IMG/VR virus record: IMGVR_UViG_3300046519_000449
Span: 1-47,315 of that record
From: a virus
Length of the DNA: 47,315 nt
Strand: one strand, 5' to 3'
The notes under the pieces are model-generated. The model was not told the DNA's origin. It saw only the letters and a list, made by a program, of their open reading frames with translations, and did not search any database. Made by a program: the position numbers and the translations under genes. How positions within the stretch are numbered: the first letter of the stretch is position 1; each line of letters starts with the position of its first letter. This document shows positions 4,032 through 6,047 of the stretch, in pieces.

Positions 4032-4573
4032 TCGTACTCAGAAATGCCGTCTTCAGTGAGACGGGCGTTGTAGGCGGCACGGATGCGCTGACGCTGCTGA
4101 TCTGCGTCGAGGTCGTAGTCGGGCACGCCGTTCATGCAGTCGCGGAAGGCCTCGCGGACTTCGCTGGTTGAGGCATCGCGGGCGACGCCGAGGACTTTCC
4201 ACCACTGCTCGCGCTGTGCTGGCGCGGCAGTCGTTAAGGCTTGACGGGCTGGCGCTGCAACCGGCGCAACCACTGCGGGAACAGCAATGCGATGCGTATC
4301 AGCCAGGCCAACAAGCCACCACGCGGTGCTTCCACCCCGCCGGTCATCGCGAATAACCTTGCCTTCGGCCTGCAGTGCCTGGAGCCGTCGGCGAGCCATG
4401 TGGATGGAGATGCCAGCCTCGTCGGCGATATCGCCGATCAGGGCACCGTCACGGACTGCGCTGCGATCACCATGGGTAAACGGGTCGTGGTACTTCACGC
4501 GAGCAACTGCGCGCAGACAGGCGAGCTTGAGTGCCTTCTCAAAGTCGGCTGGGGAAAGGGTTGTGGTGGTCAT
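4028..4573 (-). CDS. Winged-helix plus degenerate J-domain protein
   Basis: 181 residues in two parts. Residues 45-92 look like a winged helix (GDIADEAGISIHMARRRLQAL followed by a GKVIRDDRRG wing). An alanine/proline linker leads to residues 123-172, which read as a J-domain: WWKVLGVARDASTSEVREAF matches the usual first half and RQRIRAAYNARL the closing helix. The HPD tripeptide needed to stimulate DnaK is VPD here (150-152) and the domain is shortened, so ordinary co-chaperone activity is doubtful. It overlaps neighbours on both sides by ATGA-type junctions. Its role in replication or DNA binding is inference. Confidence 0.65.
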   Translation of the reverse strand: MTTTTLSPADFEKALKLACLRAVARVKYHDPFTHGDRSAVRDGALIGDIADEAGISIHMARRRLQALQAEGKVIRDDRRGGSTAWWLVGLADTHRIAVPAVVAPVAAPARQALTTAAPAQREQWWKVLGVARDASTSEVREAFRDCMNGVPDYDLDADQQRQRIRAAYNARLTEDGISEYE

Positions 4574-5637
4574 GCGGGAATCCTCACTTCGCTTTCTGCT
4601 TGCGCTTCGACGAAGGCTTCGATGAAGTGGGCCGCTTGCTGCGGGACGATGGCATTGCCGTAGGCGCGCAGGCGTCCCACTCGGCCGGATACCCCATGAG
4701 CCAACGGGAATGTGCCGGGTTCAACGCACCGCCACTTTCCATCCCTGCATTGGAGCCAGTCAGCATCTCGCCACAGACCGTTAGTCGGGCCGGACCCGCC
4801 TTGAATGCCTGGTAATCCAGCAGGTCGTTGCGCAGCTTCCCGTCTTTCCTCACGAGGCTGTTGGTCAGATCGGCGCCCCCCGATTTCCAGTCCCGAGTGG
4901 TGGGTGTTGCCCAGCCGCACAGATGCACCGCAATATCCGCCGTGCTGATTTGCGGGTCCGTCGGCTTTCGGTTCCCGATGATCGGCGGCCGCGGCTTGGC
5001 ATCCACCACAGTGCTGTTGGGGGTGGGCCAACCCGTCAGTGCTACTGCCCCTGGAAGCTTCCAAAATATCGCTCGCGAGCCATCCGGCTGCTTCGGGCCG
5101 TAGCAGTAGCCGCTCCCGATCGCGTCGTTGGTTATCGGAGTGGGCCACCCAGTAGTTTCGATCTCGGATGTGCGGCGCGCCGATGCCCGCAGCCGGAAAC
5201 GGGACACACCCGAAGGCGTAGCCCAGGCCTTCCATGTCAGCGTGTACAAGGTCGATCCAAGGAGCTGCAGCTTTGCTTGCAACCTGCTCTCCAAAGATGA
5301 CTGGAGGCCGGCGCTCGGCGATGAGGTGCTGCCAGGCTGGCCATAGGTGCCGCTCGTCATCAAACCCATCGCCTTTGCCTGCCGAGCTGAAAGGCTGGCA
5401 AGGGCAACTGCCAGTCCAGACGGCGCGATCACGCGGCCATCCGGCAAGGTCGAGGGCGAGTGCCCAGCCACCGAGGCCCGCGAAGAAGTGGCACTGGGTA
5501 TACCCGGCAAGATCATCTGGGGTGACTTCTTCGATGCTCCGCGTGTCCACGAAACCGGGGGCGATGTGACCTGCGTCGATGAGGTTTCGTAGCCATTGGG
5601 CTGCATAGGGATCGATCTCGTTGTAGTAGGCGGTCAT
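4570..5637 (-). CDS. dcm: DNA (cytosine-5-)-methyltransferase
   Basis: 355 residues. C5-cytosine methyltransferase motifs are visible: motif I HFFAGLGGWALAL (50-62), catalytic motif IV GSCPCQPFSSAGKGDGF with the PCQ cysteine at residue 80, a motif VI-like IFGEQV, and the C-terminal RLRAYGNAIVPQ of motifs IX-X. The middle third, which holds the target-recognition region, is unusually rich in R, G, H and Q, as expected if a second reading frame constrains it. The ATG at 5637 overlaps the upstream stop (ATGA). The product probably methylates phage DNA against host restriction; specificity cannot be read. Confidence 0.9.
   Translation of the reverse strand: MTAYYNEIDPYAAQWLRNLIDAGHIAPGFVDTRSIEEVTPDDLAGYTQCHFFAGLGGWALALDLAGWPRDRAVWTGSCPCQPFSSAGKGDGFDDERHLWPAWQHLIAERRPPVIFGEQVASKAAAPWIDLVHADMEGLGYAFGCVPFPAAGIGAPHIRDRNYWVAHSDNQRRDRERLLLRPEAAGWLASDILEASRGSSTDGLAHPQQHCGGCQAAAADHREPKADGPANQHGGYCGASVRLGNTHHSGLEIGGRRSDQQPREERREAAQRPAGLPGIQGGSGPTNGLWRDADWLQCRDGKWRCVEPGTFPLAHGVSGRVGRLRAYGNAIVPQQAAHFIEAFVEAQAESEVRIPA
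4584..5606 (-). CDS. Candidate overprinted gene inside the cytosine methyltransferase
   Basis: An open frame of 340 codons, in another frame on the same strand, almost wholly inside the methyltransferase gene. Its product has features that look conserved rather than random: repeated GWPTP/GWATP motifs each followed by an Asp-containing segment (GWPTPITNDAIGSGY, GWPTPNSTVVDAKPR, GWATPTTRDWKSGG) and a C-terminal LNPAHSRWLMGYPAEWDAC. From memory, WLMG(F/Y)P-x-x-W segments recur in phage proteins next to or overlapping cytosine methyltransferases. No ribosome site is evident at the ATG at 5606. GC-rich DNA makes long chance frames, so expression is unproven; the motifs raise it above the other shadows in this window. 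Confidence 0.4.
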   Translation of the reverse strand: MQPNGYETSSTQVTSPPVSWTRGASKKSPQMILPGIPSATSSRASVAGHSPSTLPDGRVIAPSGLAVALASLSARQAKAMGLMTSGTYGQPGSTSSPSAGLQSSLESRLQAKLQLLGSTLYTLTWKAWATPSGVSRFRLRASARRTSEIETTGWPTPITNDAIGSGYCYGPKQPDGSRAIFWKLPGAVALTGWPTPNSTVVDAKPRPPIIGNRKPTDPQISTADIAVHLCGWATPTTRDWKSGGADLTNSLVRKDGKLRNDLLDYQAFKAGPARLTVCGEMLTGSNAGMESGGALNPAHSRWLMGYPAEWDACAPTAMPSSRSKRPTSSKPSSKRKQKAK

Positions 5638-6047
5638 GCGTTTTCGGAGAGTTCGGCAAGGTCGTTCCACGAAATTTCGTGGCGCGAGGCCTTCTCGCGA
5701 ATGGTGTCGAGGGTGTTGCAGCTGCCAGAGCCATCGGTGATGCGCCAACCGGGCAACTCGCAGCCGCGGAAGAATTCGCCGTAGGTGCGGAAGGCACCGA
5801 CGCATGCGGCCGTGAAGCCCTTATGCGTGATCACCTGGCCGATGCGCATGCGCGTGCCGTCGTCGCGCTCAAGGAAAAGCTCGTAGACCTTGGCCTTCGC
5901 GGTGCGCCGGATAGCGGCACGCACGGCGCCGGGCGAGATGTTGAACTGGTTCGCCACTTCGGCCGTGGTGGAGCTGGCGCGAGCGGCGACGATCGCCTGG
6001 TCACGCACCGGGTCACGGACGTTCGCGTAGATCGCCGCCGCAGCCAT
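5634..6047 (-). CDS. Hypothetical protein with N-terminal helix-turn-helix-like segment
   Basis: 137 residues. Residues 27-48 (TTAEVANQFNISPGAVRAAIRR) fit a helix-turn-helix. The rest is a compact beta-rich domain (FLERDDGTRMRIGQVITHKGF, then FRTYGEFFRGCELPGWRITDG) that I do not recognise. The start overlaps the rdgC stop by one base (TAATG) and its end overlaps the methyltransferase start, so it is translated with them. It may regulate the operon or bind DNA, but that rests on the motif alone. Confidence 0.7.
   Translation of the reverse strand: MAAAAIYANVRDPVRDQAIVAARASSTTAEVANQFNISPGAVRAAIRRTAKAKVYELFLERDDGTRMRIGQVITHKGFTAACVGAFRTYGEFFRGCELPGWRITDGSGSCNTLDTIREKASRHEISWNDLAELSENA

Follow-up and report, generated by a model that had tools for sequence, protein, structure and literature searches.

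A +1 frame nested in phage cytosine methyltransferase genes is under selection and probably encodes the second subunit of a two-polypeptide enzyme

We analyzed a window of 47,315 nucleotides (positions 1 to 47,315 of IMG/VR virus record IMGVR_UViG_3300046519_000449) in which two overlapping frames share the minus strand at a C5-cytosine methyltransferase (dcm) locus (Table 1). Frame A (P0001) is the dcm ORF, open over 4570-5805, and most likely starts at ATG 5637, which overlaps the stop codon of an upstream ORF (5634-6047) as ATGA. Frame B (P0002) is the ORF at 4584-5606, shifted +1 inside dcm on the same strand; a preliminary description, made from the letters alone, had pointed out this frame of 340 codons, three GW(P/A)TP motifs in its product, and a C-terminal LNPAHSRWLMGYPAEWD, and all of these are present, the GW(P/A)TP motifs lying at B residues 153, 192, and 231. 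Frame A matches PF00145 (E = 2.5e-12), with the catalytic PCQ motif, and phrog_363 (E = 1.8e-89), and frame B matches phrog_1008 (E = 3.7e-37) and phrog_31772. The families phrog_363 and phrog_1008, to which P0001 and P0002 belong, are both labeled "DNA methyltransferase", and PHROGs makes no mention of an overlap or a nested role. Motifs IV, VI, VIII, and X are present in frame A of the window, and motif IX is absent from it.

Table 1. Features of the overlapping methyltransferase locus, in window coordinates
Feature	Position	Strand	Basis or remark
Frame A, C5-cytosine methyltransferase, proposed large subunit	4570..5637	-	355 aa; ORF reaches 5805
Frame B, nested ORF, 340 codons	4584..5606	-	Shifted +1 inside dcm, same strand
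Frame B, most likely translated part, 310 aa, ATG 5516	4584..5516	-	Homologue start signals
Frame A motif IV, PCQPFS (catalytic cysteine)	5386..5403	-	
Frame A motif VI equivalent, GEQV	5281..5292	-	
Frame A motif VIII, GAPHIRDR	5158..5181	-	
Frame A motif X, GNAIVPQ	4639..4659	-	
Frame B conserved N-terminal block (TWK motif), over dcm motifs IV-VIII	5136..5396	-	Fourfold identity, dNN/dNS
Hypervariable region, read in both frames; GW(P/A)TP repeats in B	4791..5135	-	Saturated divergence
GWPTP motif 1, frame B	5136..5150	-	Conserved in A2
GWPTP motif 2, frame B	5019..5033	-	
GWATP motif 3, frame B	4902..4916	-	
C5-MTase motif IX, LNPAHSRWLMGYPAEWD, frame B residues 295-311	4674..4724	-	Fourfold identity, profile alignment

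The homologue search proposed in the preliminary description returned, beside the phrog_1008 match, 214 phage records (tblastn with B), and in all 164 loci first examined the match lay in the +1 frame of dcm. When IMG/VR was searched by the B motif alone, nearly all matches likewise lay +1 relative to a dcm frame that contained the PCQ and GN motifs, the exceptions being one broken copy and some contig-end fragments; no standalone B without dcm was found in our searches, that of IMG/VR by motif included. Among 249 nonredundant phage dcm loci, 197 have the nested layout of the window (motif IX in +1, motif X in frame 0), 11 are fused (IX and X both in frame 0), and about 14 are split (X also in +1, as in M.AquI), with 27 loci left unclassed by the motif patterns. 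The layout states require at least six changes on the tree of the catalytic domain, so that parts have moved between frames repeatedly. A further layout, with motif IX in frame 0 and without X (L528), was rejected as a frame lesion.

The C-terminal motif of B, LNPAHSRWLMGYPAEWD in the window and LNPxWVEWLMGFPxGW in relatives, is by profile alignment motif IX of the C5-methyltransferases. L532 and related actinophages carry the PTP repeats, motif IX, and motif X in frame with the catalytic domain, and the B family aligns with these fused enzymes in hhalign (95.8% probability, E = 8e-9). The best PDB match of the fused model is M.HhaI (E = 5e-15), and one fused protein covers almost all of PF00145 in alignment. 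The fused profile places motifs IX-X on M.HhaI 273-308 (KLHPRECARVMGYPDSY...GNSVV), a match that is weak for this segment alone and is collinear after a strong N-terminal match. Pfam returned no matches for B proteins, including those with motifs IX-X, and the structure predicted for P0002 alone (pLDDT 60) gave no match in Foldseek, and PDB profile searches gave none either. The N-terminal block of B is predicted as a helix plus a β-hairpin (pLDDT mostly 70-90), with no known homologue outside the B family. This block persists as a separate +1 ORF in the fused relatives, so that motif IX alone does not account for its role; the persistence suggests that it is a required part. Among the fused actinophage MTases, a +1 ORF with the B N-terminal block is seen in L532, L533, L545, L538, L541, L563, and relatives; it mostly ends in TAG or TAA three codons before the first frame-0 LPTP, a position that points to frameshifting, to re-initiation, or to a small protein made separately.

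In the hypervariable region, divergence has reached saturation for every class of site, including in pairs with 79-96% overall identity, and the site-class counts gave no measurable constraint in either frame. Because divergence is saturated in otherwise similar pairs, the region looks replaced wholesale, as expected if recognition cassettes were exchanged. Only one frame codes for the variable region in fused and split relatives, and it is that of the PTP repeats and motif IX; this reading is therefore probably the functional one, and the dcm reading of the variable region in the window (the R/G/H/Q-rich stretch that the preliminary description had noticed) would probably be a linker. We propose the GW(P/A)TP region of B as a candidate recognition region.

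We consider it very probable that the locus encodes a two-polypeptide C5-methyltransferase in which B supplies both motif IX and a hypervariable region for recognition. By its sequence, B looks like the missing DNA-recognition part, so that the two halves of the enzyme are probably encoded in a single stretch of DNA, and a role of B as a subunit is suggested by homology and by the fusions. Frame A would yield the large subunit, which has the motifs for SAM binding and catalysis up to VIII and also X, and lacks IX; frame B, from its own internal start (about 5516), would yield the small subunit, whose conserved N-terminal domain, hypervariable GW(P/A)TP region, and motif IX would together make up the recognition (small) domain. 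We infer that B is expressed, that it serves in recognition, and that A and B associate into a heterodimeric, active, site-specific methyltransferase, which presumably shields phage DNA from host restriction and whose specificity would change as the shared variable cassette is swapped. The preliminary description had left a choice between a second protein and a remnant of a frame-swapped recognition domain. A second protein is encoded, and it is not a remnant, as nearly all homologues have the frame open and under constraint; the notion of a frame-swapped recognition domain nevertheless came close, as B consists in part of the GW(P/A)TP variable region and motif IX, which are fused in frame with the methyltransferase in some relatives. 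It is improbable that B, though truly a nested protein, has a separate function (for example, in regulation, anti-restriction, or lysis) and merely happens to be encoded in dcm: its N-terminal block without outside homologues and the lack of a fold match would fit such a protein, but B carries the very C5-MTase motif IX that frame A lacks, the block with this motif is fused to the methyltransferase in actinophages, and B was not seen without a dcm frame in the loci and searches covered here.

Start signals are conserved within the nested frame. The nested frame is interrupted by stops within A75-94 in most homologues, and a Shine-Dalgarno core precedes the ATG at A93 in 72% of cases, at A97 in 47%, and at A87 in 46%, against a background of 12% and 0-12% at other in-frame ATGs. 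Given these upstream stops and the ribosome-binding site that homologues conserve at the corresponding position, the nested gene of the window most likely starts at ATG 5516 (310 aa) and not at 5606, where the frame of the preliminary description begins; the Shine-Dalgarno sequence before ATG 5516 is weak (GAAGAAG). In a marine group, the ATG of B lies 4 nt after that of A, as ATGAATGAG, in 22 of 31 loci. The two start codons of the dcm locus overlap as ATGAATGAG with a single ribosome-binding site in L578-L608, where the proposed small subunit is therefore nested across nearly the whole methyltransferase gene. These signals bear on programmed frameshifting, by which slippage would add the C-terminal part of B to the catalytic domain of A and so produce one complete enzyme. 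The motifs do sum to one enzyme in every partition, and the +1 ORF of fused relatives mostly stops close before the frame-0 LPTP; B, however, has its own Shine-Dalgarno sequence and ATG, a second shift would be needed to regain frame 0 for motif X, and constraint on B sets in at about residue 71, over motifs IV-VIII, which requires +1 translation to be under way long before the ribosome reaches the junction. We regard frameshifting as improbable as well.

Residue i of B overlaps residues i+66 and i+67 of A, and codon positions 1, 2, and 3 of B are positions 2, 3, and 1 of A; synonymous constraint in dcm is therefore a sharp test, the third positions of dcm being the second positions of B. Identity of third bases at fourfold-degenerate dcm sites was 0.59 over A104-222 and 0.83 over A346-384, versus 0.27 expected from the codon usage of each gene itself, and was 0.35 in the dcm segment before the start of B. 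Some dcm codons are near-invariant (V361, GTT in 111 of 111; P367, CCG in 120 of 121). By a simple OLGenie-like count of site classes over 13 independent pairs (not OLGenie itself), dNN/dNS of B was 0.40 (0.29-0.52) in the part that overlaps motifs IV-VIII, 0.42 (0.21-0.94) in the motif IX block, and 1.20 (0.51-5.2) just upstream of B; the ratios for frame A were 0.20 and 0.25. Both frames are thus under purifying selection, the second as well as the first. The preliminary description had supposed that both frames may be selected and had called for dN/dS in each; homologues keep the frame open and the motifs, and synonymous variation is constrained. A constraint on the DNA or RNA (structure, or a recombination site) that preserves bases and encodes no second protein might account for the extreme base conservation in the motif IX block, but B-silent changes have two to three times the rate of B-altering ones, the frame remains open across the hypervariable region, and translation in the B frame gives a sequence with homology to a protein motif, so that we give this explanation almost no credence.

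Many long spurious ORFs occur in the window, which is GC-rich, and the length of B alone is unremarkable. When synonymous dcm codons of the window were shuffled so that the protein stayed unchanged, the +1 frame was open over 310 codons in 0.04% of shuffles (P = 0.0004; mean 4.6 stops). Among homologues fetched by the dcm protein alone (L085-L164; 71 homologues at ≤85% identity), the +1 frame was open across the conserved span in 70 of 71, versus 4.9 expected under a codon shuffle confined to each gene; the +2 frame of this sample had 12.1 stops, near the shuffled value of 10.7, so the null is calibrated. Divergent dcms fetched with a Paenibacillus phage dcm (mean GC 53%) had an open +1 frame in 35 of 51 cases versus 1.0 expected. 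Relatives with motif IX in frame 0 are a natural negative control, their downstream +1 stops (49 versus 57 expected) being at about chance level. Despite the wealth of spurious ORFs in the window, it is hardly credible that the +1 frame is stop-free merely through the dcm protein sequence and GC-rich codon usage, and a chance ORF was rejected, since openness far exceeds the codon shuffles, also near 50% GC, fourfold dcm sites are near-invariant, the B ratios lie below 1, and +1 stops are at chance level once motif IX sits in frame 0.

The two-polypeptide methyltransferase proposed here can be set beside known enzymes. M.EcoHK31I recognizes YGGCCR and M.AquI (alpha/beta) CYCGRG, and the beta frame of M.EcoHK31I sits within the alpha gene, much as the putative small-subunit frame of the window is nested in the large-subunit gene. 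Both are C5-methyltransferases made naturally of two polypeptides; in M.EcoHK31I only motif IX is on the small polypeptide, and the large subunit carries motifs I-VIII and X, with the recognition domain predicted there too (PMC3404938). In motif layout and nesting, the window pair resembles a naturally split, M.EcoHK31I-like C5-methyltransferase: the proposed large subunit has the catalytic motifs and motif X, and motif IX, which it lacks, is on the proposed small one. A possible difference concerns the recognition domain, which for M.EcoHK31I is predicted in the large subunit; the phage variable region is read in both frames in the window and, in relatives where it is singly coded, reads with the PTP repeats and motif IX. 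The phage enzymes also differ in being orphan methyltransferases; no restriction-linked copy like M.EcoHK31I was found in plasmids and 149 genomes of one bacterial family, where flank annotation was non-exhaustive. M.AquI likewise has the catalytic motifs on one polypeptide and IX on the other, but the window has motif X in frame A and a small-subunit gene that is wholly nested; the match to M.AquI is found in split actinophage relatives (e.g., L549, L565), in which A ends after VIII and the +1 ORF has IX and X. Monomeric methyltransferases of the M.HhaI type (PF00145) share the catalytic motifs of frame A, and the fused relatives are predicted to fold like M.HhaI, whereas motif IX and the proposed recognition region of the window are in the second frame. 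Methylase genes of ShiLan-type actinophages also contain an out-of-frame protein, which belongs to a mobile element, an HNH endonuclease that has been inserted (PMC11855218); in the window, by contrast, the extra frame is a proposed part of the enzyme.

We also lean, with less assurance than for the two-polypeptide enzyme itself, toward a broader reading that covers most phage C5-methyltransferases of this kind in their nested, fused, and split layouts. They would represent an ancient, phage-wide dual-coding enzyme whose catalytic and recognition subunits share DNA in two frames, with a domain without known relative overlying motifs IV-VIII, cassette exchange in both frames at once, and several moves of motifs IX and X between frames. 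The double coding spans about 280 codons and is found in phages of Proteobacteria, Firmicutes, and Actinobacteria; the nested +1 protein is kept in hundreds of phages, mostly with one frame annotated. Among DNA phages, long overlaps on one strand in which both frames are constrained are, to our knowledge, rare and usually disputed. We found no description of the overlap in phage dcm genes in the literature searched (subscription journals and REBASE lay outside its scope), and what seems to be new is how widespread the overlap is, the evidence that both frames are selected, and the series of nested, fused, and split layouts. If the two-polypeptide model is right, expression of such phage dcms as single genes would give an inactive or unspecific enzyme, which would explain "orphan" methyltransferases of unknown specificity. 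The loci form a large natural dataset on the evolution of two proteins in one DNA and on the swapping of recognition domains under dual-coding constraint, and may be a source of naturally split C5-methyltransferases.

Both genes are annotated in some phages, namely K1ind3 (ORF30/ORF29, "Mte8-like") and K1G; the "Mte8-like" label possibly comes from the UniProt entry for M.EcoHK31I. The records of E. coli RefSeq matches (H117-H121) and of plasmid matches (H101-H113) have a single dcm feature, and automatic annotation appears to miss the conserved nested gene systematically. The nested frame also lies inside the annotated cytosine methylase genes of N15 (gene 58, L001) and epsilon15 (L002), which would be convenient laboratory models for it. 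The B frame extends well past the end of dcm in L033 (479 codons), L059 (462), L060 (679), and L375 (554), possibly as C-terminal extensions. In one phage contig, the overlapping pair occurs twice in succession, the copies having diverged (L381:190-991 and 911-1952).
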